Assembly (NCBI RefSeq): GCF_004329715.1
Contig: NZ_JXSY01000024.1
Span: 62,001 to 126,000 of the forward strand
DNA from: Bowmanella sp. JS7-9
Lineage (GTDB): Bacteria > Pseudomonadota > Gammaproteobacteria > Enterobacterales > Alteromonadaceae
DNA length: 64,000 nt
Direction: 5' to 3'
In this document: positions 18,411 through 58,836 of the stretch, one piece after another
How the letters are laid out: each line of letters starts with the position of its first letter
Position numbering within the stretch: the stretch's first letter is position 1
Notes under the pieces: model-generated
The model's input: the letters and a program-made list of their open reading frames with translations, nothing else
Database searches by the model: none
Told to the model about the DNA's origin: nothing
Made by a program: the position numbers and the translations under genes

Positions 18411-18420
18411 CGCCCAATCC

Positions 18421-18552: not shown

Positions 18553-18565
18553 ATGATGAACTGCG

Positions 18566-35569: not shown

Positions 35570-35588
35570 AACTGCTACTACTTCCTAA

Positions 35589-39675: not shown

Positions 39676-39677
39676 TC

Positions 39678-43439: not shown

Positions 43440-43444
43440 GGATT

Positions 43445-45346
43445 ATGTGTGGTATAGCAGGGATATTTCATTTAGCGGGTAATACACAGGTTGACCCGGG
43501 CGTTATCGCCAAAATGAATGATATCCAGCATCATCGCGGACCAGATGCAGGCGATTATTATTTTGGTGAAGGTGTCGCACTGGCCCACCGTCGCTTGTCG
43601 ATCATCGACCTTGAAGGTAGCCCGCAACCCATGCAAAGTGCCTGTGGGCAGGCCGTCGTGGTGTTCAATGGTGAAATTTATAATTTCAAGGATCTGCATC
43701 AGGAACTGGCTGCAAAAGGTTATAAGTTTAATACTGACGGCGATACCGAAACCATTCTCAACGCTTGGCTGGAATGGGGAGTGGACTGTGTTCACCATCT
43801 GCGCGGCATGTTTGCTTTCGCCATCTGGGATAAAAAACAGCAGTGCTTGTTTATTGCCCGTGATCGATTAGGCATCAAACCTTTCTTTTACTCTTTGCTA
43901 CCCAGTGGCGAAATGCTGTTCGGCTCAGAATTAAAAGTCCTGACCCAACACCCGCAATTCGACTCAACTTTGCGCAACACAACAATCGAAGACTACTTCA
44001 CATTTGGCTACGTGCCAGAACCTCATACTGTGTATCAACACAGCTACAAACTGGCACCAGGCCACCGTATGTTGATCCAACGTGGCATGCGTGAATTACC
44101 AGAACCGGAAGAATATTGGGATATACCTACCCATTTCGACCACAGTATGGACGAGAATGAGGTTCAGGCTGAACTTATCGATCGGCTCAAGCAAGCGGTA
44201 GACATTCGCATGGTGGCGGATGTACCACTGGGCGCATTCTTATCTGGTGGCGTCGACTCAAGTGGTGTCGTCGCGCTGATGTCCCAATTGCAATCTGACC
44301 CGGTCAATACCTGCGCCATCGGCTTTGATGTAAAAGCCTTTAATGAAACCGAATTCGCGCAAATGGTCGCCGACCGCTACAAAACCAACCACAGGGTAGA
44401 AACCGTTAGCCAGGATGATTTCGACCTGATTGATAAGCTGGCGTTTTTGTATGATGAACCCTACGCCGATAGCTCCGCGATGCCCACCTACCGGGTCTGC
44501 GAACTGGCACGCAAACATGTGACGGTGGCGCTCAGTGGTGATGGCGGGGATGAGTTATTCGCCGGTTACCGTCGCTATGCGATGCATATGCATGAGGAAC
44601 GTATTCGCAATATGCTTCCGCTGGGCATTCGTAAGCCTATTTTCGGACCACTGGGGGCGTTATATCCTAAGCTGGATTGGGCACCAAAGTTTTTGCGCGC
44701 TAAAACCACTTTTCAATCCATGGCGATGGATACCGTCGAGGGCTATCACAACTCCATGAGTTTGTTGCGCGCCGATGAGCGCAAAAAGCTATTCTCAAAT
44801 GACTATCAACAAAGCCTTAATGGCTACTCGAGTCTCGAAGTATTCCGCCGCTATGGCGATAAAGTGAAACACTTAGACCCGATGAAAATCGCTCAGTATA
44901 TCGATATGAAGACCTACCTGGTGGGCGATATTCTGACCAAGGTCGATCGGGCATCAATGGCACACTCTTTAGAGGTACGTGTGCCAATTCTTGACCACAA
45001 GTTTGTTGAGTGGGCATTCAATACACCATCGAGCCACAATCTGCACAAAGGTATTGGCAAATATTCATTTAAAAAATCCCTCGAACCACATTTGCCCCAT
45101 GATGTGCTTTACCGCAAAAAAATGGGATTTGCAGTTCCATTAGCAGACTGGTTCCGAGGCCCGTTGAAACAGCGTCTGTATGATGGATTACTGTCACAAC
45201 AAATGCGCGAGAGTGGTTATTTCGACGAAAAACAACTCAAACGATTAGTGGATGACCATGTGAAAGGCTTGCGTGACAACAGTGCGCCACTGTGGACCCT
45301 GATGATGTTTGAAGCGTTTTTACGTCAGCGTAAGGTGCCTGCATGA
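43445..45346 (+). CDS. XrtA-system amidotransferase (asparagine synthase-like)
   Basis: The 633-residue protein has an N-terminal class II glutaminase domain with nucleophile Cys2 (MCGIAGIFH) and a synthetase domain with the PP-loop LSGGVDSSG near residue 267. It matches the asparagine synthetase-like amidotransferases of XrtA loci (TIGR03108 type). It probably amidates an EPS sugar acid or similar group using glutamine; the exact acceptor is unknown. It overlaps the following glycosyltransferase gene by 4 bases. Confidence 0.93.
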   Translation: MCGIAGIFHLAGNTQVDPGVIAKMNDIQHHRGPDAGDYYFGEGVALAHRRLSIIDLEGSPQPMQSACGQAVVVFNGEIYNFKDLHQELAAKGYKFNTDGDTETILNAWLEWGVDCVHHLRGMFAFAIWDKKQQCLFIARDRLGIKPFFYSLLPSGEMLFGSELKVLTQHPQFDSTLRNTTIEDYFTFGYVPEPHTVYQHSYKLAPGHRMLIQRGMRELPEPEEYWDIPTHFDHSMDENEVQAELIDRLKQAVDIRMVADVPLGAFLSGGVDSSGVVALMSQLQSDPVNTCAIGFDVKAFNETEFAQMVADRYKTNHRVETVSQDDFDLIDKLAFLYDEPYADSSAMPTYRVCELARKHVTVALSGDGGDELFAGYRRYAMHMHEERIRNMLPLGIRKPIFGPLGALYPKLDWAPKFLRAKTTFQSMAMDTVEGYHNSMSLLRADERKKLFSNDYQQSLNGYSSLEVFRRYGDKVKHLDPMKIAQYIDMKTYLVGDILTKVDRASMAHSLEVRVPILDHKFVEWAFNTPSSHNLHKGIGKYSFKKSLEPHLPHDVLYRKKMGFAVPLADWFRGPLKQRLYDGLLSQQMRESGYFDEKQLKRLVDDHVKGLRDNSAPLWTLMMFEAFLRQRKVPA

Positions 45347-46545
45347 AAATATTGCACGTCTTAGACCACAGTATTCCGCTGCACAGTGGCTACACGTTTC
45401 GAACACGTTCGATTTTAAAACAACAGCATGCTCGTGGGTGGCAAACAGTACAGGTCACCAGTCCTAAGCAAGGTAATGACAGCGCCACTATCGATGAAGT
45501 CGACGGGCTGACCTTTTATCGTACCGCTCCGCCTGGCGGGATCGCGACAAAGTTACCTGCGCTCAACCAATTAGCGTTGGTGCCACCGTTGGCAAAACGT
45601 ATTCTGGATGCAGTCAAAGACCATCAGCCTGATGTTATTCATGCCCATTCACCCGCGCTAAACGGTCTCGCGGCGCTCAAAGCTGCCAAACAATGCGGCT
45701 TACCTGTGGTGTATGAAATTCGTGCTTTTTGGGAAGATGCCGCAGTTGACCATGGTACCTGCAAGGAAGGTGACCTGCGTTACAAGATGACCCGCATGCT
45801 GGAGAATTATGTGATTAAGCATGCCGAGCAGGTCACCACTATCTGTGAGGGTTTACGACGTGACCTGATTCAGCGTGGCGTACCCGACACCAAAATCACT
45901 GTTATCCCTAACGCAGTCAATATCGAGCAATTTAATGTAATCACCAGCAAGGACTTGGCACTGGAACAAGAGTTAGGCTTACAGGGCAAGCAAGTGCTGG
46001 GATTTCTGGGGTCATTTTATGGCTACGAAGGGCTGGATCTGTTGGTCGCTGCCCTGCCGCAGATCAAGCAACACATTCCCAACGTTGCGCTACTGTTAGT
46101 AGGTGGTGGCGTTCAAGAGGCCAATCTCAGAAATCAAATAAAGCAATTGGGTCTGGAAAACGATGTCATTATGCCAGGACGTGTACCCCATGCTGACGTT
46201 GGCAAATATTATAGCCTGGTAGACCTGTTAGTATATCCGCGCAAGAACATGCGCCTGACCGATTTAGTCACCCCACTCAAGCCTCTGGAAGCAATGGCTC
46301 AAGGTAAGTTAGTGCTCGCTTCAGATGTAGGCGGACACAAAGAATTGATTGAGCATAATAAAACCGGATGGCTGTTTAATGCAGATAACGTTGACGATTT
46401 GGCGCGCGCCGCGGTCGATATTTTGTCTGATCAAGCTCATTGGCCGGCAGTGATTGCGCAGGGGCGTCACTTTGTGGAACAGGTACGAAACTGGCAAAAT
46501 TCCGTTGCCAACTATCAATCAGTCTATCCTGGCTTGAAAGGGTAA
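45343..46545 (+). CDS. XrtA-system glycosyltransferase (TIGR04063 type)
   Basis: The 400-residue GT4 enzyme begins MKILHVLDHSIPLHSGYTFRT, diagnostic of the stp3 subfamily. It has YEIRAFWEDAAVDHGT and a C-terminal LLVYPRKNMRLTDLVTPLKPLEAMAQGKLVLASDVGG. It adds a further sugar in the EPS repeating unit. The start overlaps the amidotransferase stop. The next glycosyltransferase gene starts 3 bases after its end. Confidence 0.93.
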   Translation: MKILHVLDHSIPLHSGYTFRTRSILKQQHARGWQTVQVTSPKQGNDSATIDEVDGLTFYRTAPPGGIATKLPALNQLALVPPLAKRILDAVKDHQPDVIHAHSPALNGLAALKAAKQCGLPVVYEIRAFWEDAAVDHGTCKEGDLRYKMTRMLENYVIKHAEQVTTICEGLRRDLIQRGVPDTKITVIPNAVNIEQFNVITSKDLALEQELGLQGKQVLGFLGSFYGYEGLDLLVAALPQIKQHIPNVALLLVGGGVQEANLRNQIKQLGLENDVIMPGRVPHADVGKYYSLVDLLVYPRKNMRLTDLVTPLKPLEAMAQGKLVLASDVGGHKELIEHNKTGWLFNADNVDDLARAAVDILSDQAHWPAVIAQGRHFVEQVRNWQNSVANYQSVYPGLKG

Positions 46546-46548
46546 TTC

Positions 46549-47628
46549 ATGCGCATTTGTGTTGTTGGCCCGATTCCGCCGCCATCTGGCGGCATGGCAG
46601 TGCAAACCCGACAATTAGTCGAGTTGCTTACTGCCAGAGGGAATCAGGTTAACTTAGTGGCCACCAATGCGCCCTATCGGCCAGCGCTTATCGGCAACAT
46701 TCCGGGACTTCGCGCACTATTTCGACTTGTGCCTTACATCATCAATTTGCTGCGACAAATTCGCCAGGCGGACGTTGTGCATATGATGGCAAACAGTGGT
46801 TGGTCCTGGCATCTTTTCGCCGCGCCTTGTATATGGATTGCGTATTTGCTGCGCACACCTGTGGTAGTGAACTATCGTGGCGGTCACGCCGATGTGTTTT
46901 TCACGCGTTCATGGCGTTGGATTGCCCCTACGATGTCAAAAGCCACCGACATTGTGGTGCCTTCCGGCTTTTTAAAAGATGTCTTTGCCGCCTACCAGAT
47001 TAACGCGCGAGTGATACCCAATATTCTCAACAGTGAGCTGTTTAAACCTGTAAAAGGTGAGCCGCGCTCAGGGTTCCACCTGATCAGCACACGAAATCTT
47101 GAAAAAATTTACGGCAACGATATCGTGCTGGCTGCATTTGCCAAAGTGTGTCAGACCCACCCCTCCAGTAAACTGACGGTTGCAGGTTCCGGACCGGAAA
47201 AGGACAACTTACGCGCACAGGCAAAACAACTGGATATTGCCGACGCCGTGACGTTTTGTGGTCGATTGGACCAGGCCGAGATGGTGCGTTTATACCAAAG
47301 TGCAGACATCCTGCTCAATGCCAGCCGTATCGATAATAGCCCTAATTCATTAATCGAAGCCATGGCCTGTGGTGTCGCCGTTATTTCCACCAAAGCGGGC
47401 GGCATACCTTATCTGGTCGATCATCAACGAACCGGTATACTGGTTGACATTGACGATACCAATGCAATGGCTGAGGCTGCCAATACTCTGATGCAAGACC
47501 CCTCTAAGCTCACACAATTGTGTGAGGCGGCGCTGCGGCGGAGTGAGGATTTTCATCAGGAAAAAGTGCTGGCACAATGGCAGGCATTGTATGAGAAAAT
47601 CTCGCCACTCAGGGAAGCAAAACACTGA
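46549..47628 (+). CDS. Glycosyltransferase family 4 protein in the EPS operon
   Basis: The 359-residue GT-B protein begins MRICVVGPIPPPSGGMAVQTRQL, with the nucleotide-binding Gly-rich loop. It has NYRGGHADVFF, a GRLDQAEMVRLY region, and ILLNASRIDNSPNSLIEAMACGVAVIST with the GT4 E-x7-E signature. The sugar is unknown. It is encoded between the TIGR04063-type gene and the PaaK-like gene, overlapping the latter by one base. It is not one of the better defined XrtA subfamilies, so it may be specific to this EPS structure. Confidence 0.9.
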   Translation: MRICVVGPIPPPSGGMAVQTRQLVELLTARGNQVNLVATNAPYRPALIGNIPGLRALFRLVPYIINLLRQIRQADVVHMMANSGWSWHLFAAPCIWIAYLLRTPVVVNYRGGHADVFFTRSWRWIAPTMSKATDIVVPSGFLKDVFAAYQINARVIPNILNSELFKPVKGEPRSGFHLISTRNLEKIYGNDIVLAAFAKVCQTHPSSKLTVAGSGPEKDNLRAQAKQLDIADAVTFCGRLDQAEMVRLYQSADILLNASRIDNSPNSLIEAMACGVAVISTKAGGIPYLVDHQRTGILVDIDDTNAMAEAANTLMQDPSKLTQLCEAALRRSEDFHQEKVLAQWQALYEKISPLREAKH

Positions 47629-48986
47629 TGTCTTTCTATACCAAGCTTGTATCCGGACTGATGTTCCCGCTGCACGAAAAGCTGAAAAAGCACAATACGG
47701 TGGCGATCAAGCAATCCCTCGAAGCCAGTCAATGGTGGCCAAGGGATAAATTAATCGCTCAACGCAATCTCCGTTTACAGCGCTTTATACAGAAAGTCTG
47801 TGAACACATCCCCTATTACCGGGATACCTTCGCCCAGTTAGGTTTGACACCTGCAGACATTCAATCACCAGCAGATTTAACCAATTTACCGTTTCTGGAT
47901 AAGCAAACCATCAAAGATAACTTTGAACAACTCAAAGACCCGCTAGCGACCTCATTGGCCCGTTTCAATACTGGCGGATCTAGCGGCGAGCCTCTGGTGT
48001 TTATGTTAAGTAATGAACGCGTATCACACGACGTTGCAGAAAAATGGCGTGCAACCCGTTGGTGGAATGTGGATATTGGTGATAAAGAAATTGTTGCCTG
48101 GGGCTCTCCCATCGAATTGGGTGCGCAGGACAAGGTGCGTTTATTGCGGGATAAACTGTTTCGTTCAACACTAATACCCGCGTTCGATATGAATGAGGAG
48201 AAAATTCTCGCGTTCATTGAACATATTCGTGCAACCCGTCCCGCCATGTTATTTGGTTATCCGTCGGTGTTTGATTTGATCGCGAAAACTGCCAATCAAC
48301 ACGGCATCGATATGAAGAATCTGGGAATAAAGGTTGCCTTTGTCACTTCCGAGCGACTTTATCCTTATCAACGTGAAAACATCCAAACCACATTTGGCTG
48401 TCCTGTAGCCAACGGCTATGGTGGCCGTGATGCCGGCTTCATTGCGCATGAATGTCCCTCCGGAAACATGCACTTATCCTTTGAGGATTTAATTGTCGAG
48501 ATCATCGATCCCAACGGTAATCCACTCCCGGTCGGTGAAAAAGGCGAAATCGTGGTAACCCACATGGCCACCTCTGAGTTTCCGTTCATTCGCTATCGCA
48601 CAGGCGATATCGGCGCATTGAGCGACAAACAGTGTGATTGTGGTCGCACTTTACCGATTCTCGAAAGCATTGAGGGTCGCAGTACCGACTTTGTCATCGG
48701 CGCTGACGGCACAATCATGCACGGCCTGTCGCTCATTTATATCCTGCGTGATATTCAGGACATAAAGACGTTTAAAATTATCCAGCACAGTGTTGAAGAA
48801 ACCGAAGTTCAATTGATTCTCAAAAATGCTGCCGATCTTCACGACGATATGCGTCACGCCATCATCGCGAAGTTTCAGCAACGGTTGGGTGAACAGGTGT
48901 CGATTAATGTGCATTGCGTAAAAGATATCCCCGCAGAAAAATCAGGTAAGTATCGCTATGTCATCAGCAAGGTAACCAGTGCATGA
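47628..48986 (+). CDS. PaaK/CapK-like adenylate-forming protein in the EPS operon
   Basis: The 452-residue protein has the phenylacetate-CoA ligase fold: TGGSSGEPLVF (the ATP-binding loop), then GYGGRDAGFIAHEC and FIRYRTGDIGAL, which corresponds to the AMP-binding hinge motif. The C-terminus ends in SGKYRYVIS. Relatives named CapK occur in capsule operons and are thought to help modify sugars or acyl groups. The substrate is unknown. The gene overlaps the 26-codon ORF in ATGA and is embedded in the EPS operon, so a role in decorating the EPS is likely. Confidence 0.85.
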   Translation: MSFYTKLVSGLMFPLHEKLKKHNTVAIKQSLEASQWWPRDKLIAQRNLRLQRFIQKVCEHIPYYRDTFAQLGLTPADIQSPADLTNLPFLDKQTIKDNFEQLKDPLATSLARFNTGGSSGEPLVFMLSNERVSHDVAEKWRATRWWNVDIGDKEIVAWGSPIELGAQDKVRLLRDKLFRSTLIPAFDMNEEKILAFIEHIRATRPAMLFGYPSVFDLIAKTANQHGIDMKNLGIKVAFVTSERLYPYQRENIQTTFGCPVANGYGGRDAGFIAHECPSGNMHLSFEDLIVEIIDPNGNPLPVGEKGEIVVTHMATSEFPFIRYRTGDIGALSDKQCDCGRTLPILESIEGRSTDFVIGADGTIMHGLSLIYILRDIQDIKTFKIIQHSVEETEVQLILKNAADLHDDMRHAIIAKFQQRLGEQVSINVHCVKDIPAEKSGKYRYVISKVTSA

Positions 48987-49063
48987 TTGATAGTCTGTTT
49001 TTGCTCGCTGACGTTGCTGCAGTATGTATTCTGTTTTACTGGGCAAATAAAGAGGACATGTAA
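48983..49063 (+). CDS. 26-residue single-helix membrane ORF between EPS genes
   Basis: This tiny frame starts with ATGA overlapping the PaaK-like stop codon and stops exactly one base before the TTG start of the O-ligase. The product begins MIDSLFLLADVAAVCILFYW and ends ANKEDM: one hydrophobic helix of about 17 residues with an acidic/basic C-terminal tail. The AGAGGA ribosome-binding site of the O-ligase lies inside it. Perfect stop-start spacing on both sides suggests coupled translation. It might be a small membrane subunit or a translation-coupling leader. No family is recognised, and comparison with other genomes would be needed. Confidence 0.55.
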   Translation: MIDSLFLLADVAAVCILFYWANKEDM

Positions 49064-50410
49064 TTGCGCGATCTTATTCTGGTGGCGTTTCTTTTTATCG
49101 CCATCTACTACAGTTTTAAAAAACCCTTTATCGGCGTGGCAGCGTGGGTATGGATTGCATTGATGGCTCCCGCTTCATGGGCGTTTGGGTTTTCACAAAG
49201 TTTTCGACTAAACCTGACAATCGTGCTGGTCACTGCACTCTCCTATGTCTTTGTTTTTAAAGGTAAAGCATTTAAATTCACGCGAATTCATTTTTGGGTA
49301 TTTTTATTTCTACTGTGGACGTTAATTTCAACCGCCACTAATTTGAACGTCGATCCTGATTGGGTGTGGGACTATTGGTTCAACTTCCTAAAGATATTAA
49401 TGCTGTTCCTGTTTGTTACGCTGGTCGTCACACGTCGCATACATGTGGATACCGTGATATGGGCAATCGTATTGTCCATTTCAGCTTATGCGGGCATGGA
49501 AGCGCTAAAATTTTTACTGTCAGCGGGCAGTCACAGAATTACCGGTAGAGCAGGCATCATTGCAGATCGAAATGACCTGGCAGTGGCTATCAACATGTCG
49601 ATTCCATTAATTGTTTATTTGCTTCAGGTCAGTAAGCACAAATGGGTCAAACGCGGCCTCTCTATCCTGCTAATACTGAATATTTTAAGTATCGTTGGAA
49701 CATACTCCCGGGCAGGATTTATCGGTTTGATGATCCTGGGGACAGCACTTTGGTGGAACTCAAAACACCGTGTAAGTATTTTGTTGGTTGCAGTCGTTTC
49801 TATTCCCCTGTTATATGGTGCTGCTCCGGATTCTTGGAAAGAGCGACAAAGCACCGTGTCGACCGCAGCGGAAGAAGATCTTTCCTTCATTGGACGATTG
49901 TGGGCATGGAAAATTTCTACCATGATCGCCGTGGATCATCCTTTTTTCGGAGGGGGTTTTGCCGCAGTCCGCGATCCGATTCTTTGGGCACATTATGGCG
50001 CCAGAACTCCACACTATCCGCCCATTTATACTCGCCCTATTCCAGACACCATTATCCCTAAGGCCGCGCATAACATATTTATGCAAGTGTTAGGCGACCA
50101 CGGGTTTGGCGGGCTATTTGTCTTTTGTATGATTCTGTTCTCTGCCTGGCGGGTGAATCTTATCACCCGTAAAAAGGCCAGAGAGCATAACCAGGATTGG
50201 TTGGTAAAGCTTACAACTATGCTAAACCTTTCGTTTTTGGCTTACGCCATTAACGGCTGTAACGTCAGTCTCGCGTATTTTGACGAGTTTTATGCGTTAG
50301 CGGGTTTAGTGGCAGTATTATTCGCTAATCAACTTTGGAAAGAGTCTACCGACAAGTCGGCCAAGCAAACTACGCCCGGCCACGACCATCACGTAACGCG
50401 TAGTTTTTAA
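49064..50410 (+). CDS. Exosortase A-associated O-glycosylation/O-antigen ligase-like protein
   Basis: The 448-residue protein has about ten membrane helices and the Wzy_C/O-antigen ligase region with GRLWAWKISTMIAVDHPFFGGGFAAV, followed by a short periplasmic loop. It fits the TIGR03097-type exosortase A-associated ligase family, which probably polymerises or transfers EPS onto an acceptor. The start is TTG at 49064, supported by AGAGGA 7 bases upstream; no ATG lies near. The 3' end overlaps the convergent sulfotransferase gene by 41 bases, so it ends the rightward arm of the locus. Confidence 0.9.
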   Translation: MRDLILVAFLFIAIYYSFKKPFIGVAAWVWIALMAPASWAFGFSQSFRLNLTIVLVTALSYVFVFKGKAFKFTRIHFWVFLFLLWTLISTATNLNVDPDWVWDYWFNFLKILMLFLFVTLVVTRRIHVDTVIWAIVLSISAYAGMEALKFLLSAGSHRITGRAGIIADRNDLAVAINMSIPLIVYLLQVSKHKWVKRGLSILLILNILSIVGTYSRAGFIGLMILGTALWWNSKHRVSILLVAVVSIPLLYGAAPDSWKERQSTVSTAAEEDLSFIGRLWAWKISTMIAVDHPFFGGGFAAVRDPILWAHYGARTPHYPPIYTRPIPDTIIPKAAHNIFMQVLGDHGFGGLFVFCMILFSAWRVNLITRKKAREHNQDWLVKLTTMLNLSFLAYAINGCNVSLAYFDEFYALAGLVAVLFANQLWKESTDKSAKQTTPGHDHHVTRSF

Positions 50411-51107
50411 CGTAAACCGCCAGCGCTTCAAACCAATCTTTGAAGCGCTTTGACTTCTTATAAAGTGGTTTATTGTAAACGCGGTGAAGGTCTTCCATGG
50501 TCAATTTGAGTCCCAGTTGTTGATTCAAACGTTCAATGGTCTGCTCGGGTCTTAGTTGCAGATCCTCGAATTCAAATTCACTATATGATTTACCGCGCTC
50601 CGTTAAAAACCGCTTAAAGGAGTCTGTCACCGATTTATTGTAACGTCGGGTAAAACTGAGGCTTTGTATATGTCGTCGTTGGTTCGAAGTAATCCATGAT
50701 TGCATATCATCACGAGTTAGAATGATGAATTCCACACTATCAATGTCAACAAAACGCATCCAGGCGCGAATCGTCAGTGCAAGCCTGGGATCTTTCCAAA
50801 TCCAGGGTTGGTTTTCTGAAAGCTTTTCTGCAAATGCTTTATACGGTGACGGGTCCAGCATCGCTATCTTTTGGGTCACGTCCAATACAGCTTGCTCAGT
50901 AAGAATTTCATGCTCTCTGTCACCCGTGTAGCCAGCGTCAGCAATCATCTTGTTATTCAGTGCGACTAATTCAGAGTTTTCATAGGTGTTATAGTCAATC
51001 TTCTGAAATGTCTCATCCCCTAACCAATATTGCCCCTGAGATATCAATGCCGTAAATGCAGAACTCCCGGTCCATCCGTGAGTCAGAATTATTACGTTCT
51101 TTTTCAT
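50370..51107 (-). CDS. Sulfotransferase-family protein
   Basis: From the ATG at 51107 (AGAGGA upstream) the 245-residue product begins MKKNVIILTHGWTGSSAF, a 5'-phosphosulfate-loop-like start. EFIILTRDDMQSWITS follows (Arg and Ser for the 3'-phosphate), and then a basic C-terminal part with SKRFKDWFEAL. It should use PAPS to sulfate an unknown acceptor; its position beside the EPS ligase suggests sulfated EPS. The longer frame start at 51158 has no advantage. Its 3' end overlaps the O-ligase gene by 41 bases on the other strand. Confidence 0.8.
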   Translation of the reverse strand: MKKNVIILTHGWTGSSAFTALISQGQYWLGDETFQKIDYNTYENSELVALNNKMIADAGYTGDREHEILTEQAVLDVTQKIAMLDPSPYKAFAEKLSENQPWIWKDPRLALTIRAWMRFVDIDSVEFIILTRDDMQSWITSNQRRHIQSLSFTRRYNKSVTDSFKRFLTERGKSYSEFEFEDLQLRPEQTIERLNQQLGLKLTMEDLHRVYNKPLYKKSKRFKDWFEALAVYVKNYALRDGRGRA

Positions 51108-51256
51108 GTCAAATCCTCTGCCATAAACCAGTACCCTACAACATCTAAAATCTCGCAACTAACTCATCCAGCGAGCGGGTTGCACTCCAGCACAATTCCA
51201 AACTGATGTTTAATTTCTTTTTACGTCTTACTCAGTTCATTTCAGATTTGTGATTT

Positions 51257-52120
51257 TTATTTAATTTTTTTCACCAATTTAAGCAAAGACTCAAACATCT
51301 GCTGGCGCCATTCTTTGCGGGAGAAACTGTGGTCAGCATCAGCCAGCATGTGATTGCTTACATTGTCACGTGCGAGTATTTTTTGCCAAATAGAAGATGA
51401 AGCGGCGTAGTCATTAAATTCCTGTGCGATAAAATCCTTTCCGCTCGTCAGAATCTGGATCGGGCCGCAAAATTGTTCGGTACTTCGGGTCAGCCGCAAG
51501 GGTAAGGATAATCCGCTAAAATCCTGGCTATTGGTCTGCGATTGGGATTTATCTGACGACTTACGCGCTTGCGCCGCTACGCTAAAAAAGCCCGACATTG
51601 ACTTAATCACATTGAATTGGCCGCTGAACACTTTACGCCACAATGACTTACTCAATAATCTTTGTAGGTAGTAGTGTTTAATATATGTTTTTGCTTGCCC
51701 TTCATCAGTTCTTATCCACGGATTAGCAAGAAACAGGGCTTTGACACGCTCATCCTGATAGCCATAAAACGCGCAACCAGATGCAGATTCACATTCTCCC
51801 CACAAAACCACACCACGCAGATGTGGAAAGGCATCGGTGAGTAAATCAATGGCGCTGCGGATATCTGCATGCATATCGATAAAGCCGCGATTTTGTCCAC
51901 CGCTATCACCTACACCGCGATGGTCAAAACGTAGACACGGAATATGATTGGAAGCTAAATAGCGTCCCATATTCACAAATTGTCGACTCACACCGACCCG
52001 ATATTGAGGGCCTCCCGCAACCACTATAATCACACCAATATCAGCAGGCGTGTCGCTGCTGTGTATGATTCCAACAAGTGGAGAGCCCTCACAATCAAAA
52101 ACTCTGGCATGTTCTATCAT
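51257..52120 (-). CDS. Exosortase A-associated alpha/beta hydrolase 1
   Basis: The 287-residue alpha/beta hydrolase has IVVAGGPQYRVGVSRQFV and RFDHRGVGDSGG (oxyanion and strand 4-5 region). Its nucleophile elbow reads WGECESASG, so Cys110 sits where Ser is usual. A candidate Asp occurs in ILTSGKDFIAQEF and the His in ADHSFSRKEW. This fits the TIGR03100-type hydrolase 1 of XrtA loci. The substrate is unknown; a thioesterase or acyltransferase role with a carrier protein is suggested by the neighbours. It overlaps hydrolase 2 by 4 bases and ends the leftward cluster. Confidence 0.88.
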   Translation of the reverse strand: MIEHARVFDCEGSPLVGIIHSSDTPADIGVIIVVAGGPQYRVGVSRQFVNMGRYLASNHIPCLRFDHRGVGDSGGQNRGFIDMHADIRSAIDLLTDAFPHLRGVVLWGECESASGCAFYGYQDERVKALFLANPWIRTDEGQAKTYIKHYYLQRLLSKSLWRKVFSGQFNVIKSMSGFFSVAAQARKSSDKSQSQTNSQDFSGLSLPLRLTRSTEQFCGPIQILTSGKDFIAQEFNDYAASSSIWQKILARDNVSNHMLADADHSFSRKEWRQQMFESLLKLVKKIK

Positions 52121-52944
52121 CGGCTGGCCACCTGCGTTGCAGTAGCGGCAACCAATTCAGGAACTAAAGTCCGCTCATGTGCCTGCCAAAAGGCCGGGCC
52201 GATAATGCTATGAGTAACAAACTGCTTATTGAGTTGTGCCCAACTTTGCTGAATTTTCAGATCCGCCCGACCCGGTTGTCGGTCTGCGCTGGGCAAAATT
52301 GAATACCAATGTATCGGACAAGAGGGTACATCCGCCTTCTGATGATTCACCTCATTTAACTCACCAAAAAGTGTCGGTGAAATCGCATAACCCGATACTT
52401 CAACAGGCTGTCCTGCTGCAATTTGCTGTTCAAATATCCGGGTACTTCCCTTATCTTCCGCACGATTTAAGCTTGCCGCCATTTTGACCCGCAACATTTG
52501 GGTTAACATTGGCTTACCATCCAATAATGGCTGCCAGAAATGAAAGTCTTTCAGGTTAGCAATTAACGACTGCGCATACAGTGCAACCAGCGCTCCCAGA
52601 CGAATCCCCAGAACAGACGTTGAACGATACCCTGCAGATGCAGCAACGTTTGATGCTACATGCATGGCATTAACCATACTTTGCCAAGTAGATTGGACGA
52701 AATCCCCTTCGCTATCTCCGGTACCCAATGCATCAACGCAAACTACGCCGATACCTTTTTCAGCCAGCGTTTGTGCCAACAGCGTTACCATATAGCGACT
52801 ACGATTCATCTCCTCAGTAAAAGGAGCAGCTACCAGTAAACAATGCCCGCTCCAATTATCTGCCTGAGGGCGCCAGTGACAACAAAATAACCTGCCATCG
52901 GCAGACTCAATAAACTCTGCCGCTAGCTGAAAATTCTCAGCCAT
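52117..52944 (-). CDS. Exosortase A-associated alpha/beta hydrolase 2, atypical elbow
   Basis: The 275-residue protein has the alpha/beta-hydrolase pattern of TIGR03101: VAAPFTEEMNRSRYM, VVCVDALGTGDSEGDF, then the nucleophile elbow LGIRLGALVAL with Arg115 in the place of Ser. The usual Ser nucleophile is therefore missing, and classical hydrolase chemistry is doubtful. It may be a structural partner or act on a bound acyl carrier. The start overlaps the acyl carrier protein stop by one base, and its end overlaps hydrolase 1 by 4 bases, so the three are co-translated. Confidence 0.88.
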   Translation of the reverse strand: MAENFQLAAEFIESADGRLFCCHWRPQADNWSGHCLLVAAPFTEEMNRSRYMVTLLAQTLAEKGIGVVCVDALGTGDSEGDFVQSTWQSMVNAMHVASNVAASAGYRSTSVLGIRLGALVALYAQSLIANLKDFHFWQPLLDGKPMLTQMLRVKMAASLNRAEDKGSTRIFEQQIAAGQPVEVSGYAISPTLFGELNEVNHQKADVPSCPIHWYSILPSADRQPGRADLKIQQSWAQLNKQFVTHSIIGPAFWQAHERTLVPELVAATATQVASR

Positions 52945-53192
52945 TAATTGTCTTTGTCTTCAATAAATGCAGCCAGAGAACCGACACTGGCAAACACGTC
53001 AGCGGAGATTTCATCATCATCAACACTGAAACCAAATTCTTCCTCCATTGCTGTTATCACACCCACAACAGCCATAGAATCAAATTCTGGAATAGCACCC
53101 AGTAGCAAAGTATTTTCATCAAATTCTGCCTTGCGGTCATGCATCGCTAACACGTCACACACAATATTGATGGCGTCCTTTACATAAGACAT
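52944..53192 (-). CDS. Acyl carrier protein 2 of the EPS-linked cluster
   Basis: The 82-residue protein has the carrier-protein fold with the phosphopantetheine site Ser39 in EFDSMAVVG, an acidic helix 2 (ITAMEEEFGFSVDDDEI) and an acidic C-terminus. It should carry an acyl or glyceryl group on a 4'-phosphopantetheine arm. It lies 15 bases after the GNAT-like gene and overlaps the hydrolase 2 gene. It differs from the fatty-acid AcpP type (DSLDTVE), so it is a dedicated carrier. Confidence 0.9.
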   Translation of the reverse strand: MSYVKDAINIVCDVLAMHDRKAEFDENTLLLGAIPEFDSMAVVGVITAMEEEFGFSVDDDEISADVFASVGSLAAFIEDKDN

Positions 53193-53207
53193 AACTCTCT
53201 CCCAACA

Positions 53208-54065
53208 TTACAGTCGCATTGCAACCATTTCACTGTAAACATATTGAATATCCTCGGGACGCAAATCCTGACTGAGGTAAAAGCGTTGATGCCCCTCTGC
53301 AGCTATTCCCCAGTATGAAAAATTATCCGGCATAAAACGCATTTCTACGCGGGTAAATTTAAAGCCGAATCGAGACAACAACTGAAAACGAATGGAACGC
53401 CAGCAACGTGCAAACAATGCATAGTCACTAACATACATCAACTGGGCTGACCAAGTGCGCTTAAATTTTTGCCTTTTCATTAGAATAAGTAACGGACCTT
53501 CTTCGGTTCGTAACACCATGCTATACACGCCATCGAGGCTCCTATGATCGGTAAAAATCTGCCAATCATGCGGGCTCAAAATATCATGTATTTCTTTGTC
53601 CCCATCCACCTGGTGAGTCCGGTTAGAAAACACTGGCAATGGCAGATTTGGCAGCCAACGTAATCCTGTCTTGAGCGGAATAAAGCGCAGATAAGAAAAA
53701 ATCTCTAAGCCACTTTTATTGGGCGTAAACATCGTAAAGTGATAACCCGCTTGTTTGATCACCGCCAAAACTACCGAGATACTGTGTTTACGAAATTCCG
53801 GCAATACACACCAGGTATGTGGATTGCACATTTGTCGCAATTCACCGTTGAGCCATTGCTGTGAATACAATGCACAAATTGCCCCAACCACCTGATGATG
53901 CTCATTCACCAGCGCAAACCCATAATTAGGGACTGAATCAAGCCATTGTGTGGTCAGGATCGTCTGCCATTGTGTTACGGAAAAACGTCCATTCATATTT
54001 CGATGAAGAAACTCTGAGACCTGTGGGACAAGCTCCTTATCAATCGCAATGGTATTAATTGTCAC
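53208..54065 (-). CDS. GNAT-fold acyltransferase-like protein
   Basis: The 285-residue protein has a GNAT-like N-terminal half: QVVGAICALYSQQWL, MCNPHTWCVLPEFRKHSISVV (corresponding to the acyl-carrier/CoA pyrophosphate-binding helix), and YHFTMFTPNKSGLEIFSYLRFIPLK. A second half of similar size follows. The exact reaction is unknown; transfer of an acyl group from the adjacent carrier protein to EPS or another acceptor is an inference. It starts 3 bases after the hotdog-SDR gene. Confidence 0.7.
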   Translation of the reverse strand: MTINTIAIDKELVPQVSEFLHRNMNGRFSVTQWQTILTTQWLDSVPNYGFALVNEHHQVVGAICALYSQQWLNGELRQMCNPHTWCVLPEFRKHSISVVLAVIKQAGYHFTMFTPNKSGLEIFSYLRFIPLKTGLRWLPNLPLPVFSNRTHQVDGDKEIHDILSPHDWQIFTDHRSLDGVYSMVLRTEEGPLLILMKRQKFKRTWSAQLMYVSDYALFARCWRSIRFQLLSRFGFKFTRVEMRFMPDNFSYWGIAAEGHQRFYLSQDLRPEDIQYVYSEMVAMRL

Positions 54066-54068
54066 GCT

Positions 54069-55481
54069 TTATCCCTCCACAGCGGAACGCACAAAATCAG
54101 TCATGTGTGCTAACGTTTCGACATCATCCGCACTAGCAGCCCCAGCAGTCTGGTCAGTCGCCATAGCGGGTAAGCGGCTGATCACTGCATGCCAGTTGGA
54201 TTGTTTTGCACAGATTTGCAGCAAACAACTTTCAGCGGCCGCCTTAGCTGCAATATATTCGGCAAAACCTTTTTTGCCTTCTGTCACAAACACACTTGAG
54301 GGTAAGACCACACGTAGCGCACTTCCCTTTTGACGAACACGGGCGGCATGGTTGAGCAGGTTCACCATACCATCGACATAGCACTGACTAAACCGATGAA
54401 ATTTCTTCAAATCAAATGGGCCATCATTACGCCCGATTTGTGGAGAAGGAAAATAAAATATATGGGAATAGTCGCATGCCAGTCTGGCAAATTGTTCCGT
54501 GCTCACGTCTGTGACGTCAAAACCGAAACAAGCGGCCCGAGCACCGTCAGCCTGCAATTCAGACAAGATTCGTCTTGCATCCTTATCACCGCGGGCGAAG
54601 GTGAAATCAACCTGCGCCCCACCTGCTGCCAGCAGCTTCACTGCAAGCTCTCCTAACCCCCGTGAACCACCCACTACCAAAGCTTTAACAGTATGAAATG
54701 CAGTGCGTTCGACTTGTCGTTTCACTACTTCATATGCGGGCTGCGCTACTGGTTTTTCTCTGAATAATCCGTCAATGCGAGCTTCAAAAGAGTCGGACTT
54801 AATCAACAGCGCCACACTATTAAATCGCTCATCTGTACTCGTTGTACACGCACTGAATGACAGAGTGGGCGAGGTCGTGGGCGTCAAAAACTTTACTTGA
54901 AGTCCAGTGAACACGCTGTCGATACCCGGGCACTTCATACCTACCACATGAGTGGTAGCCAGCAGAGCCGCAATTTGATAATCCGGCACAGCTGCAGATA
55001 AGGCCGGCATAAGCGCACGGGCCTGATTAACATTCCACGGTGCCATCGCACTATAGTTGAATGACAAAGCATCAGTGATAGACAGGTGATCCGGTAGCGC
55101 TTGTGAATACTCAACTTTTTGCAAAATAGCCGCGCCCGTTTCCGTTGATTCGATAGAAAACTGGATCTGTTGCACGGTTTTACCATTAGCCAACAGCGCT
55201 ATTCGATATTCATTTTCCTGTGCGCGTTTTATCTCGATATTTAGCGAGCTACCCTGAAAAATCGGACCGACAAAATTGGCCTTCAATGCAACAATTCGCC
55301 ATGCTGGCTGTGAGATGTTACTGCACATGGCATTCAAGGCAGCCAACAATGCATGAATTCCATGTACTACCGTGTCGCCGAACTGCACACGGCGAGCGGC
55401 TTCTGGATCAACATGCATGGGATTCCAATCAGCAGATAAGTCAGCAAACATTTTGCTCTGGGCATGAGAGATCGTGAACAT
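54069..55481 (-). CDS. Fusion of MaoC-like hotdog dehydratase and short-chain dehydrogenase
   Basis: From the ATG at 55481 the 470-residue product has an N-terminal hotdog domain with the MaoC catalytic motif D18-x-N20-x2-H23 (SADWNPMHVD). A second hotdog-like half covers about 130-245. An SDR domain follows with GGSRGLG (271-277), Ser395/396 and Y409-x3-K413. It could dehydrate and reduce an acyl group on the carrier protein, as in a beta-oxidation- or PKS-like cycle. The 1-base overlap with the FkbH stop (TAATG) points to coupled translation. The fusion is uncommon to my knowledge. Confidence 0.85.
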   Translation of the reverse strand: MFTISHAQSKMFADLSADWNPMHVDPEAARRVQFGDTVVHGIHALLAALNAMCSNISQPAWRIVALKANFVGPIFQGSSLNIEIKRAQENEYRIALLANGKTVQQIQFSIESTETGAAILQKVEYSQALPDHLSITDALSFNYSAMAPWNVNQARALMPALSAAVPDYQIAALLATTHVVGMKCPGIDSVFTGLQVKFLTPTTSPTLSFSACTTSTDERFNSVALLIKSDSFEARIDGLFREKPVAQPAYEVVKRQVERTAFHTVKALVVGGSRGLGELAVKLLAAGGAQVDFTFARGDKDARRILSELQADGARAACFGFDVTDVSTEQFARLACDYSHIFYFPSPQIGRNDGPFDLKKFHRFSQCYVDGMVNLLNHAARVRQKGSALRVVLPSSVFVTEGKKGFAEYIAAKAAAESCLLQICAKQSNWHAVISRLPAMATDQTAGAASADDVETLAHMTDFVRSAVEG

Positions 55482-57346
55482 TACGATGCTTCCAGTTTGG
55501 ATATAGGCGGCCGGTGAAACTGGTAATGTCGTGTATCTAGCGACCATACCTGCAGCTGTTCATCCCAACAAAAGCCGAGTTCTGGTAGCAGATTTTCTAC
55601 CAATACATTTTTTTCGGTAGGTAAGTAGCGTGCGATGATCTGATTTATACCACTCGTAATTGCATGCTCAACCAGATAGTCACAAATCCAATGTTCAAGA
55701 TCGCGCTTGATCACCCGACAACTCATCAACCAGCTGTCAATTTCCAACTGCATGGGTTGCTTATGACAAATAACGACGGACACCAAGCCATTATCACCGA
55801 AGCGATCGGCCAGCCTTACTGACAACGTCAGCATATCAACATTAGCTGCCATTCGTTCAATTTGATCTTGGGTATAGCGCTTTGTCGTCAGGTTGAACTG
55901 ATTGGTTTTATTCACCAGCTGCGTCACGCGAACAATGTTGGAAGATAGAAATGGCTCAACCCGTGCGACCATTTCCAGCGACCGCAAATACTCCTGCATG
56001 TCAGTGGCATTGTTTTGCAGCTTTGAGCGCGCCGCGTTAGCCCGGTATTGGTCTGCACGGTGCAAATCATCCTCGGTTTGCGACAATGACTCAAAGTAAT
56101 TAGCCCGCATTAAAATATCAGCGTACGTAGAGGGGTCACGACCCATTTCAGGCACCGCCACGTCAGGCAGCATCTTTCTGACAATTTCTCGCTCAGCAGG
56201 ATTGTCATCGACAAATACCAATGCATCGATACCGATATTCAGAGTAGTGGCAATAAACTGAAGATTAGTCGGCTTATCCTGCCAGTTAGCCACAAAGACA
56301 GCTATATCCGTCTCTTTTAGCAACATATCTGGGTGGACCTGAAACGCCTCTAACGCATTTTTTTCATCATTTTTAGAACATACAGCCAAAATTATGCCTG
56401 CTTGCTTTAACTCAAGCGCCAACTGCTGTAAGCGCAAGTGGGCTTCGCCACGAGGCGTTCCTGGCTGAATTGCGATACCGTACAGCCCGTCATCACCAAT
56501 GACACCTCCCCACAAGGTATTATCGAGATCCAGCACCAGGCACTTACGACTTTTTCCCTTTATAGCGCCAACTAACGCAGCGACACGTTCACAATAAAAT
56601 AGCGTGCCCTCTTCCGACAGGGCTATGCGAGAGCTCAACCAACTGCGCTGATCGAACCACTGGGTGCCGCCCAGATGAGCCGCTTCACTAAAAACATCCA
56701 ATAGATAATGCGGGCTATCCGAAAGTCGCTCGGCCAACTGTTGATTGAATGCAAGGATGGTCGCACTTAGTGCAGTGTGGTGGCGAATATCAAAATTGCC
56801 GAGCAGATTGGCCGGTGGTAAAGCCAAATTTTGCACGATACAAGGCACGCCGGCATTAGCGAGAAAACCATCCGCGACTTGAGTAATGAAGTCCAGACTG
56901 CTTCGGACATCCGACTTAGCCTGACTCACTCCGCCATTGGCGAAGGGATAACCACGGTAATCCTGATTAATCAAAATGAAATCGGGACCAAACTGACATA
57001 ATTTAGAATTGACCGACTGTGACTCCTGCCAGGCCTGATCAAAATCAGCCAGACAGATGTTGAGCCACACACCCCGTCGCAGTCCTGCAATGAATAACGG
57101 CGCAACTAATAAGTCTTGAGTACTGTTGCTGACAATCCCAAGCTTTACTTGAGCGAAGCCGCATGCAATAACCGATGCCCCCGCATCGGAGCATACTGCC
57201 TTCATTAGTCTGGTACATTGATTGACGTCTAACTGGGTGTGGAGCACCCTTGCCAGACTCGCCCTATCGGCTGAGCCCTCAGTAATCTGTTTACAAATAG
57301 TTTTAAAATCGTCCGCTACGGGCGGTAACCAATCCCGGTTCTGCAC
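55481..57346 (-). CDS. FkbH-like HAD-IIIC phosphatase/transferase
   Basis: The 621-residue protein has a long N-terminal region (1-265), then a HAD-IIIC domain with catalytic D273-L-D275-N-T277 (VLDLDNTLWGGVIGDDG), AVCSKNDE and FVDDNPAERE, and a C-terminal GNAT-like part (about 440-600). FkbH-family enzymes load a glyceryl group from 1,3-bisphosphoglycerate onto an acyl carrier protein in polyketide pathways. The two carrier proteins flanking this cluster fit such a role. It starts 24 bases before the upstream carrier-protein gene's end. Confidence 0.88.
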   Translation of the reverse strand: MQNRDWLPPVADDFKTICKQITEGSADRASLARVLHTQLDVNQCTRLMKAVCSDAGASVIACGFAQVKLGIVSNSTQDLLVAPLFIAGLRRGVWLNICLADFDQAWQESQSVNSKLCQFGPDFILINQDYRGYPFANGGVSQAKSDVRSSLDFITQVADGFLANAGVPCIVQNLALPPANLLGNFDIRHHTALSATILAFNQQLAERLSDSPHYLLDVFSEAAHLGGTQWFDQRSWLSSRIALSEEGTLFYCERVAALVGAIKGKSRKCLVLDLDNTLWGGVIGDDGLYGIAIQPGTPRGEAHLRLQQLALELKQAGIILAVCSKNDEKNALEAFQVHPDMLLKETDIAVFVANWQDKPTNLQFIATTLNIGIDALVFVDDNPAEREIVRKMLPDVAVPEMGRDPSTYADILMRANYFESLSQTEDDLHRADQYRANAARSKLQNNATDMQEYLRSLEMVARVEPFLSSNIVRVTQLVNKTNQFNLTTKRYTQDQIERMAANVDMLTLSVRLADRFGDNGLVSVVICHKQPMQLEIDSWLMSCRVIKRDLEHWICDYLVEHAITSGINQIIARYLPTEKNVLVENLLPELGFCWDEQLQVWSLDTRHYQFHRPPISKLEAS

Positions 57347-57369
57347 GTCTAAATCCCTGTTCCCGTGAC

Positions 57370-57615
57370 TTATGCCATTTTCGCCAGAATTGCATCCACC
57401 AGGCTAGACACTGATTTAAGTTGGTCTATCTGCTCAATTTCGAACTGGATAGAAAAGTGCTTTTCAATTGTTGTGAGCAAACGAATTTGCGCCAGACTGT
57501 CCCATTCCTCAATGTCATCACTGCTGAGGGAATCACTGAAAGAAACGTCTGCATCCATGAATACGTCATCGAAAATATCTTCCAATGCGCTCAATACTTC
57601 TGTGCGTTCACTCAT
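57370..57615 (-). CDS. Acyl carrier protein 1 of the EPS-linked cluster
   Basis: From the ATG at 57615 (GGAAGTGAG upstream) the 81-residue product has the carrier fold with phosphopantetheine Ser40 in EEWDSLAQIRLL and a helix 3 region IEQIDQLKSVSSLVDAI. It is the first gene of the leftward FkbH cluster. The WDSL motif resembles carriers that receive glyceryl groups from FkbH proteins. The longer frame start at 57648 (MYKKQ) is not preferred. Upstream is a 150-base AT-rich gap with a 16-base palindrome. Confidence 0.88.
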   Translation of the reverse strand: MSERTEVLSALEDIFDDVFMDADVSFSDSLSSDDIEEWDSLAQIRLLTTIEKHFSIQFEIEQIDQLKSVSSLVDAILAKMA

Positions 57616-57762: not shown

Positions 57763-58836
57763 TTACTCTGCCAACTTCAGCACGCGAATATTGTCCGAGG
57801 CATTATTAATCAGTACAAACAGGTCTCGCTCCCGCCAATACGCGAAACGTCCGAAAGTTCCGTTTGTCGTCGCTTTATTTGGTGCCCCCACTGTCACTAT
57901 AGAATGCCAAGTCATTGTCTGTGGATCCTGTATAAACAGCATCGGCCCTCCTGCCCAGGCCACAAATCGCTTTCGTTTCGAATCAAAAACCAGCCCTGGG
58001 GCGTTGGTCTCATGTAGCGGTTTTAAATCTGACGGAAGTGGTATCTTTTGCCGCCGGAAATCGGAACCATCCGCTGTACTAATCAAAAACTGTTTGCCTT
58101 TACCAAGCATGAGGAACCGTTTACGCAGTGGGTCAAAAGCAGCCGTCAAATCTAACCCTATCTGACTGTCTGACAAACGCAGGTATCGTCCACCTTTCGG
58201 CGTATATTGGTACTGATAAAAACTGTAGGTATCGTGCAAATATATTCGATCATTGATGGGGTCATAAGCTGACACCAGGCCATACGTTTTTCGGGGAATA
58301 TCACCCGTTGCGGCGTCTCTTCGCCACTCATGGGTGGCCAGATCCATTAACCATGTTTCACGATCTGCGCCTCCGGAGCCACTGGCCAATGACCCCGAAA
58401 ACGCCCACAGTAAATCCGCCTTTTCCAGCACATTTAAACCATCGTAGGTATGCCTGCCATTTGGCTGAGTTCCATCAAATGGAGAGAGTTCCGATTTAGG
58501 GGCGCCTGTGGCATTGGCTGGATAAGCAGGATCGGTTAATCGAAGCAAATGTTTGTCGCGAATATTAAATCCATAAATTTCATTACCATAGTAATCGTTA
58601 TGGCCGCCGCCCCAAATATATAAAGTACCGCGTTGCTGGCTAAGAGCGGCCCCACTCCAAGCACCTGTTACCGTTCCACAGTGGTAACTGAAATCATAAG
58701 GGTAATCATTGAATTTGTTGGTAGGACAAATTTGTTTTAATTGCGTATTCGGAATGACCTCCCATCGGCCAACTTCGGCGGCTGACGGCAGTATTGAGCA
58801 CGCATAGATTAAGCTGGACATTAAAATTCTATGCAT
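57763..58836 (-). CDS. Secreted kelch-like beta-propeller protein, function unknown
   Basis: The 357-residue product has a signal peptide (MHRILMSSLIYACSILPSAAE) and repeated propeller strands. Examples are LYIWGGGHNDYYGNEIYGFNI, TWLMDLATHEWRRDA, and RIYLHDTYSFYQYQY, plus later FVAWAGGPMLFIQ. GGGHNDY resembles the kelch/galactose-oxidase-like pattern. Cysteines near residue 35-53 suggest a disulfide. No exosortase tail is seen. It lies 147 bases before the acyl carrier protein gene on the same strand and is divergent from the TPR-protein operon. A role in EPS recognition or binding is inference only. Confidence 0.72.
   Translation of the reverse strand: MHRILMSSLIYACSILPSAAEVGRWEVIPNTQLKQICPTNKFNDYPYDFSYHCGTVTGAWSGAALSQQRGTLYIWGGGHNDYYGNEIYGFNIRDKHLLRLTDPAYPANATGAPKSELSPFDGTQPNGRHTYDGLNVLEKADLLWAFSGSLASGSGGADRETWLMDLATHEWRRDAATGDIPRKTYGLVSAYDPINDRIYLHDTYSFYQYQYTPKGGRYLRLSDSQIGLDLTAAFDPLRKRFLMLGKGKQFLISTADGSDFRRQKIPLPSDLKPLHETNAPGLVFDSKRKRFVAWAGGPMLFIQDPQTMTWHSIVTVGAPNKATTNGTFGRFAYWRERDLFVLINNASDNIRVLKLAE

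Follow-up and report, generated by a model that had tools for sequence, protein, structure and literature searches.

A second acyl carrier line beside exosortase A-associated genes

In a 64,000-nucleotide stretch of the Bowmanella sp. JS7-9 genome (the window; positions 62,001 to 126,000 of contig NZ_JXSY01000024.1, i.e., C17:62001-126000 of the 3.44-Mb assembly GCF_004329715.1), we studied a minus-strand gene cassette next to an exosortase A (XrtA) polysaccharide locus. Its first four genes encode an acyl carrier protein (ACP1), an FkbH-type HAD protein (a probable glyceryl transferase/phosphatase), a fusion of a MaoC hotdog dehydratase with a short-chain dehydrogenase/reductase (MaoC/SDR), and a GNAT-like acyltransferase; they are followed by a second carrier, ACP2, and by hydrolases 2 and 1, which belong to the ordinary exosortase A-associated set. 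Judged from the sequences, the first four genes appear to be a second carrier line added alongside the ordinary acyl genes. We consider it plausible, though short of probable, that this line loads an acyl group and yields lactyl-ACP1 in an exosortase A polysaccharide genome.

In the order of transcription, the cassette between positions 50370 and 57615 consists of ACP1 (57370 to 57615), FkbH (55481 to 57346), MaoC/SDR (54069 to 55481), the GNAT-like protein of 285 amino acids (aa) (53208 to 54065), ACP2 (52944 to 53192), hydrolase 2 (52117 to 52944), hydrolase 1 (51257 to 52120), and a sulfotransferase-like protein (50370 to 51107). An earlier note on this DNA had named the first seven genes in the same leftward order, which the coordinates of the open reading frames (ORFs) and the family matches bore out, and had overlooked the eighth. 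The first seven genes are tightly spaced, either overlapping by 1 or 4 bases or separated by gaps of 23, 3, and 15 bases; the sulfotransferase-like gene follows hydrolase 1 at a distance of about 150 bases, or 98 if its longest ORF is taken. The start sites of MaoC/SDR and ACP1 are our choice. The MaoC/SDR ORF overlaps FkbH by 67 bases if read from its first ATG, and an in-frame ATG at 55481 has one base in common with the FkbH stop codon; for ACP1, we kept the ATG at 57615 (longer ORF to 57648), which was also the limit of the interval in the earlier note.

Both carriers match PF00550 (26.6 bits for ACP1 and 24.7 bits for ACP2). FkbH scores 314.7 bits against TIGR01686 (curated cut-off, 146.65) and 27.5 bits against PF21211, and it is the sole match in the genome at an E value of ≤1e-3. 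The two halves of the fusion match PF01575 (66 bits) and adh_short PF00106 (46.3 bits), and hydrolases 2 and 1 exceed the cut-offs of TIGR03101 (218.1 versus 202.75 bits) and TIGR03100 (297.6 versus 168.45 bits), respectively. Direct reading confirmed the motifs that had been noted before, namely the phosphopantetheine serines of both carriers (D-S-[LM]), the FkbH motif DLDNT, D40/H45 of the hotdog domain, and S417/Y431/K435 of the SDR domain, whose catalytic roles we assume.

The acyl-CoA ligase and the pyridoxal phosphate (PLP) decarboxylase that usually accompany hydrolases 1 and 2 had been thought missing, with FkbH and MaoC/SDR standing in their place. Both genes are on the same contig outside the window, 17 to 20 kb past ACP1 and 10 to 13 kb past the window end: the decarboxylase (TIGR03099; C17:136437-137630) at 541.5 bits (cut-off, 478.45) and the ligase (TIGR03098; C17:137696-139234) at 715.2 bits (cut-off, 592.35). 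A replacement by FkbH is therefore ruled out, and relatives without FkbH also keep the set of ACP2, hydrolase 2, and hydrolase 1. Hydrolase 1 was found in 46 of the 196 sampled genomes of the source family (E ≤ 1e-20). Besides the window and the genome G144, 44 of these remained, and we fetched the hydrolase-1 neighborhoods of 40, leaving out G044, G127, G136, and G175; 2 of the 40 end at short contigs. None had a match of at least 30 bits to the FkbH, MaoC/SDR, GNAT-like, or sulfotransferase-like proteins of the window, and within 19.5 kb, the decarboxylase was present in 16, the ligase in 15, and an MBOAT protein in 11. This distribution assigns ACP2 and the two hydrolases to the ordinary system and marks the other genes as additions.

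The two carriers could also be told apart by their neighbors. We labeled 51 carrier ORFs scored at 1e-4 (more distant carriers were not counted) in 84 loci by the genes within 600 bases, with related genomes counted separately. All 12 carriers with FkbH as the only labeled neighbor were nearer to ACP1 of the window, and all 24 with the ligase, decarboxylase, or hydrolase 2 as a neighbor were nearer to ACP2. Another 14 had no labeled neighbor, and one had both, this being the ACP1 of a metagenome-assembled genome (MAG; L014), which lies between FkbH and a hydrolase fusion. Conversely, measured from FkbH, the nearest scored carrier was no more than 220 bases away in 13 loci and 1.1 to 1.7 kb away in 4 (L154, L161, L164, and L221), and no carrier was scored in four short loci (L141, L142, L149, and L152) and two fused synthases. 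FkbH homologs lacking carrier genes, which the earlier note had proposed to look for as a sign against it, were thus not seen where scoring was possible. By this count, ACP1-like carriers pair with FkbH and ACP2-like carriers with the ligase, decarboxylase, or hydrolase 2, with no crossover (12 versus 24).

Recurrence of the cassette

Seven genomes from two families share the exact seven-gene order, namely that of the window, G144 in another genus, and five genomes of a second family, f201 (G910, G880, G904, G905, and G930). The cassette is thus not confined to the source genome, and the order proposed for a search in other XrtA genomes recurs in six of them, all XrtA positive. MaoC/SDR directly follows FkbH in eight genomes with conserved order, these seven and G787 of f201, which has only the first four genes (ACP1, FkbH, MaoC/SDR, and GNAT). 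In G144, a kelch-like gene, the seven genes, and the sulfotransferase gene lie in a row convergent with that genome's own XrtA locus; identities to the window proteins range from 39% (MaoC/SDR) to 69% (sulfotransferase), and its hydrolase 2 scores 195 bits, slightly below the cut-off (202.75).

The added genes are rare. Full-length MaoC/SDR was found in 2 of the 196 family genomes (the window's and G144). Matches to the GNAT profile came from a single genome, the window's own, among 295 sampled from the order; from four (the window's, G787, G559, and G770) among 369 sampled from the class; from G144 alone among five of its genus; and from 7 among 100 sampled from f201, the family of G787. In G928 of f201, the GNAT gene is broken, with its parts at the ends of two contigs, of which one end is about 5 kb away from XrtA, and no other cassette gene was matched. 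Outside f201, a weak GNAT match accompanies FkbH and a carrier in G770 and is all that G559 has, on a 5.5-kb contig. The MAG L014 (JAIUPH010000008.1) contains all cassette parts on mixed strands; its hydrolases 2 and 1 are fused into one protein of 607 aa with both parts above cut-off, and a TIGR03098-like ligase adjoins ACP2, scoring 490.4 bits, below cut-off, as it is cut by the locus end.

The base composition of the cassette (GC fraction, 0.469) gave no signal of recent import when compared with that of the window (0.476). Promoter-like and terminator-like sites in the cassette did not exceed the level of shuffled sequence, and no MaoC/SDR relatives were found in the phage and viral collections searched.

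Proposed acyl-loading chemistry

FkbH enzymes make glyceryl-ACP, according to two sources (PMC7489565, PMC4979870). We propose that FkbH would take glycerate from 1,3-bisphosphoglycerate and load it onto ACP1, that the MaoC hotdog half would dehydrate glyceryl-ACP1 to hydroxyacryloyl/pyruvoyl-ACP1, and that the SDR half would reduce the keto group to give lactyl (2-hydroxypropionyl)-ACP1. The GNAT-like protein would then move the lactyl group from ACP1, most likely onto an amine. On the residues and gene fusions described below, lactyl-ACP1 would be the best-supported product.

The FkbH blocks DxDNT, SKN, DD, NQFN, and SCRV, the last with a cysteine that we take to be catalytic, were kept in all 13 aligned proteins, including two from fused synthases, and D40, H45, S417, Y431, and K435 of MaoC/SDR were invariant across four aligned relatives. 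In a plasmid-encoded synthase of Streptomyces anulatus, a co-linear MaoC/SDR region (residues 33 to 505) is followed by FkbH (723 to 1040) in one chain, and the same holds for a plasmid synthase of Ensifer canadensis (25 to 483 and 728 to 1047). By reading, both continue after FkbH with an ACP-like stretch and a ketosynthase-like start, although the available piece of the Ensifer synthase gave no match to a strict ketosynthase-cysteine pattern. This arrangement of MaoC/SDR, FkbH, carrier, and ketosynthase is that of a starter-unit loader. Because the parts are fused N-terminally in two large synthases, the ACP1-FkbH-MaoC/SDR trio can be regarded as the split form of a known loading module. ORF and family scans found no ketosynthase in the cluster; therefore, no chain extension is expected. 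Lactyl loading in bryostatin biosynthesis is a precedent, for which we found no confirmation in the bryostatin loading-module literature accessible to us. The earlier suggestion of a glyceryl- or lactyl-like group built on a carrier thus stands as a dedicated FkbH-ACP pathway, its chemistry backed by the two fusions, and falls only as a replacement of the ligase and decarboxylase.

A plainer route would be glyceroylation, in which the GNAT-like protein transfers the glyceryl group from ACP1 and MaoC/SDR acts elsewhere, e.g., on ACP2-bound or fatty acyl groups. In Rhodobacteraceae SC52 (ACP-FkbH-MBOAT), Sinorhizobium meliloti, and Tistrella, an FkbH-ACP pair does occur near an MBOAT gene in a fetched stretch that gave no MaoC/SDR match, and with an acyltransferase at hand, direct glyceryl transfer would suffice there. 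However, MaoC/SDR directly follows FkbH in the eight genomes named above and is fused to it in the two synthases, and we consider glyceroylation unlikely for the cassette, if the least unlikely of its rivals.

GNAT-like protein, hydrolases, and transfer of the acyl group

The GNAT-like protein of the window had no Pfam or NCBIfam match of its own. The name, which the window protein alone would not justify, comes from its relatives, of which 7 of the 28 aligned matched Acetyltransf_1 (PF00583; best E value, 2.9e-7). Its place in the cassette order is conserved, and it is the likely transferase. Across the phylum, 39 other genomes had a match, and the GNAT neighborhoods of 28 were fetched; FkbH, a carrier, or the ligase lay nearby in 8 of these (L154, L155, L158, L159, L161, L164, L166, and L184).

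The GNAT gene stands with the ligase, decarboxylase, and ACP2 in G1019, with the two enzymes of that set exceeding their cut-offs, and in S. meliloti, with a decarboxylase match that is broken between two reading frames. In L161 and L164, weak ACP1- and MaoC-like matches, FkbH, and GNAT follow each other on a single strand. On named plasmids, the FkbH-ACP pair is found with varied acyltransferases, namely MBOAT proteins (Rhodobacteraceae SC52, S. meliloti, and Tistrella) or a WcbI-family protein together with MaoC/SDR (Niveispirillum), and on a Paroceanicella plasmid with a methyltransferase.

The XrtA-type PLP decarboxylase of the source genome (L030:12435-13670, on C17 outside the window) had BtrK as its best match among solved structures (7ru7/2j66; E value, 1.7e-61), compared with 7e-44 for the best "probable diaminopimelate decarboxylase" in the same structure-only search. 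BtrK decarboxylates L-glutamyl-[BtrI ACP], and this nearest relative suggests a possible aminoacyl-carrier route in XrtA systems. The GNAT acceptor may be an amino sugar of the exopolysaccharide (EPS) or, given BtrK as the best solved relative, the amine of an ACP2-bound aminoacyl group.

Hydrolase 1 has Cys110 at the nucleophile elbow, in place of the usual serine, and this residue, Asp229, and His264 were invariant in all 48 aligned proteins. In hydrolase 2, the elbow position is occupied by Arg115 in 39 of 40 aligned proteins and by Ser in one (8 of 47 loci were dropped at ≤60 bits). These residues point to hydrolase 1 as an enzyme that may accept thioesters, as an acyltransferase or thioesterase, and to hydrolase 2 as a probably inactive partner without its own nucleophile.

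An MBOAT gene (PF03062, 137.1 bits; L030:9705-11285), followed by a gene for a 375-aa protein, lies on the window side of the ligase and decarboxylase and would be the probable meeting point of the acyl groups and the polysaccharide. Further genes around the ligase and decarboxylase (L030:9705-12420 and 15462-18929) encode a THxN PEP-CTERM protein, a FeeM-like acyl amino acid synthase, and a FAD-binding protein. One elaborate scheme would have both lines converge on a single composite EPS substituent: omega-aminoacyl-ACP2 would come from the ligase and BtrK-like decarboxylase, lactyl-ACP1 would come from FkbH and MaoC/SDR, the GNAT-like protein would join them as N-lactyl-aminoacyl-ACP2, and hydrolase 1, with its Cys, His, and Asp and a partner lacking the nucleophile, would act as an acyltransferase instead of a hydrolase and pass the group toward the MBOAT protein and the polysaccharide. 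The gene order fits this scheme, in that the GNAT gene separates the carrier genes in every one of the seven full cassettes and adjoins the ligase, decarboxylase, and ACP2 in S. meliloti and G1019; we nonetheless regard the scheme as doubtful.

Link with exosortase A and the probable target

The XrtA/PEP-CTERM polysaccharide locus (33962 to 50410) is convergent with the cassette. It encodes a chain-length protein, an EpsB-type transferase, a deacetylase, and a FemAB-like protein, and, on the plus strand from 36386 to 50410, XrtA, glycosyltransferases, an amidotransferase, a PaaK-like ligase, and an O-ligase (TIGR03097). XrtA scores 327.8 bits (cut-off, 208), and all scanned genes of the locus but the PaaK-like ligase were above their NCBIfam cut-offs. 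With hydrolases 1 and 2 in the window and ligase_PEP_1 and dCO2ase_PEP1 elsewhere in the genome, the parts of an XrtA system are present. Among the 100 sampled genomes of f201, XrtA was above cut-off in 42, including all 7 with a GNAT match; ignoring relatedness, the probability of such an overlap by chance is 0.0017 for the family sample, or 1.3e-4 if only the genus is considered (XrtA positive in 19 of 60). XrtA was also above cut-off in G144 and G770 and below it in G559 (185 bits). We infer EPS as the probable target.

Several observations weigh against the proposed lactyl line, its partners, or its EPS target. In 20 of the 28 GNAT neighborhoods, FkbH, carrier, and ligase were all absent from beside the GNAT gene (a 65-bit ligase match 8 kb away in L182 was not counted), so the GNAT-like protein need not be ACP dependent and its family is broader than its use in the cassette. 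No XrtA match was obtained in G962, G1014, or G1019, in which the GNAT gene lies beside FkbH or the ligase-decarboxylase-ACP2 set. The five full f201 cassettes adjoin flgA and have XrtA on another contig, all five genomes being XrtA positive, so that an EPS target is not forced, and the four-gene core of G787, also adjoining flgA, has no ACP2 or hydrolases beside it. MaoC/SDR is on the strand opposite to FkbH in the MAG L014 and occurs without a nearby FkbH in Streptomyces atratus. A MaoC domain acting on glyceryl-ACP was not found in the literature searched, which was mostly open-access text with subscription journals mostly outside its scope, and the AlphaFold models were too poor to use (predicted local distance difference test scores of 45 for the GNAT-like protein and 38 for MaoC/SDR).

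Some of these observations would suit a flagellin glycan or a lipid as the target, with the adjacency to XrtA in the source genome being mere gene order. In f201, flgA is next to ACP1 in G787 as well as in the five full cassettes, enterobacterial islands for flagellin glycosylation include carriers and acyl genes (PMC4875605), and GNAT stands with FkbH or the ligase in the three XrtA-less genomes. On the other flank, however, four of the five full cassettes have the housekeeping genes ndk, rlmN, and hisS instead of flagellin-glycan genes (this flank is not within the G880 stretch); this, together with the presence of XrtA in all seven GNAT-bearing f201 genomes sampled, sets the flagellar reading back. 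Moreover, hydrolases 1 and 2 within the cassette are curated as exosortase A associated, and the cassettes of the window and G144 are convergent with an XrtA locus. We therefore consider a flagellin or lipid target distinctly unlikely. The Shewanella flagellin operon sfmABCDE lists no ACP or FkbH gene in the accessible part of its description (PMC3765264).

In L161 and L164, from the XrtA-negative genomes G962 and G1014, the row described above shares one stretch with an O-ligase-like gene, a glycosyltransferase gene (423 to 435 bits to stp3 of the window), and an MBOAT gene, possibly as an XrtA-free version of the same chemistry. On a 1.65-Mb plasmid of S. meliloti (CP050512; L214), presumably pSymB-like, MBOAT, ACP, and FkbH genes lie beside rkp/capsule genes, and this locus is a laboratory-tractable setting for polysaccharide acylation by an FkbH-carrier pair.

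We give little credence to an oxidative branch, in which the SDR would oxidize glyceryl-ACP1 at C3 to hydroxymalonyl-semialdehyde/hydroxymalonyl-ACP, as in methoxymalonyl-ACP pathways. FkbH with dehydrogenases is indeed the described route to hydroxymalonyl-ACP, but that route, as described there, has two dehydrogenases and an O-methyltransferase beside FkbH and the ACP (PMC7489565), whereas the cluster has one SDR and no methyltransferase match, and the hotdog dehydratase would be left without a role. A decaying or chance assembly without joint function, which the rarity of the MaoC/SDR and GNAT genes might suggest, is hardly credible, as the seven genes stand in identical order in genomes from two families (seven in all) and the aligned proteins retain their active-site residues.

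Genes adjoining the cassette

The sulfotransferase-like gene begins at the ATG at 51107 (ORF to 51158) and scores 21.2 bits against PF13469, under the cut-off of 27. It is retained beside the cassette in G144 (67 to 69% identity) and the MAG L014 (46%) and had no match in the fetched stretches of f201. Annotated sulfotransferases are also encoded close to the FkbH-ACP pairs of Niveispirillum and Rhodobacteraceae SC52, in the latter together with a sulfate-activating enzyme. Upstream of ACP1, a kelch-like protein is encoded at 57763 to 58836, and the G144 cassette is likewise adjoined by one, there as part of a 1204-aa protein with polysaccharide-lyase-14-like, fn3, and CBM96 matches.

Significance and comparison with known systems

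In the literature searched, we found no description of this gene set among the papers listed for FkbH with glyceryl and lactyl groups or bryostatin, and none of FkbH-like proteins with flagellin glycosylation or of FkbH with polysaccharide biosynthesis; searches for exosortase or XrtA with ACP, FkbH, or the ligase, and for HAD-IIIC with an acyl carrier protein, returned only unrelated work. The OzmB/FkbH glyceryl literature that we found is polyketide work. The hydrolases, ligase, and decarboxylase of exosortase A systems have been named in NCBIfam by association only (hypothetical equivalog), and the cassette links these acyl genes to concrete acyl-carrier chemistry, with two carrier lines that can be separated by sequence. 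In it, an antibiotic-style starter-unit set is found in pieces within a probable surface polysaccharide modification. The Cys/Asp/His of hydrolase 1 and the elbow Arg of hydrolase 2 can be turned directly into predictions, and hydrolase 1 of this system occurs in nearly a quarter of the sampled family genomes.

The closest parallel is the polyketide synthase loading module with FkbH and dehydratase/reductase domains, of which the BryA-type module of bryostatin is an example. The N-termini of the S. anulatus and E. canadensis synthases have the same MaoC hotdog, SDR, and FkbH parts, co-linear and with one carrier. All three parts are present in the cassette with their active-site residues, but as separate proteins with no fusion to a polyketide synthase or ketosynthase, followed by a GNAT-like protein and in an exosortase polysaccharide genome. 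The glycerate-activation pairs (OzmB, FkbH, and the tetronate operons) have the same FkbH with a stand-alone ACP, whereas the cassette lacks the FabH-like condensing enzyme of the tetronate operons, a methyltransferase, and a second dehydrogenase.

On the polysaccharide side, the XrtA system has the same hydrolases 1 and 2, ligase_PEP_1, and dCO2ase_PEP1, all above cut-off in the source genome, and the FkbH-ACP1-MaoC/SDR-GNAT line is extra to it, occurring in none of the 40 hydrolase-1 neighborhoods of relatives. The aminoacyl-ACP route of butirosin (BtrI/BtrJ/BtrK) shares a BtrK-like decarboxylase with a ligase next door; it differs in that the setting here is a polysaccharide and in that ACP2 is more than 20 kb away. 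Lastly, the Niveispirillum plasmid cluster of FkbH, ACP, WcbI acyltransferase, and MaoC/SDR has the same loader, carrier, and tailoring fusion and four equivalent roles, with a WcbI-family transferase instead of the GNAT-like protein and no hydrolase 1 or 2 match in the stretch.

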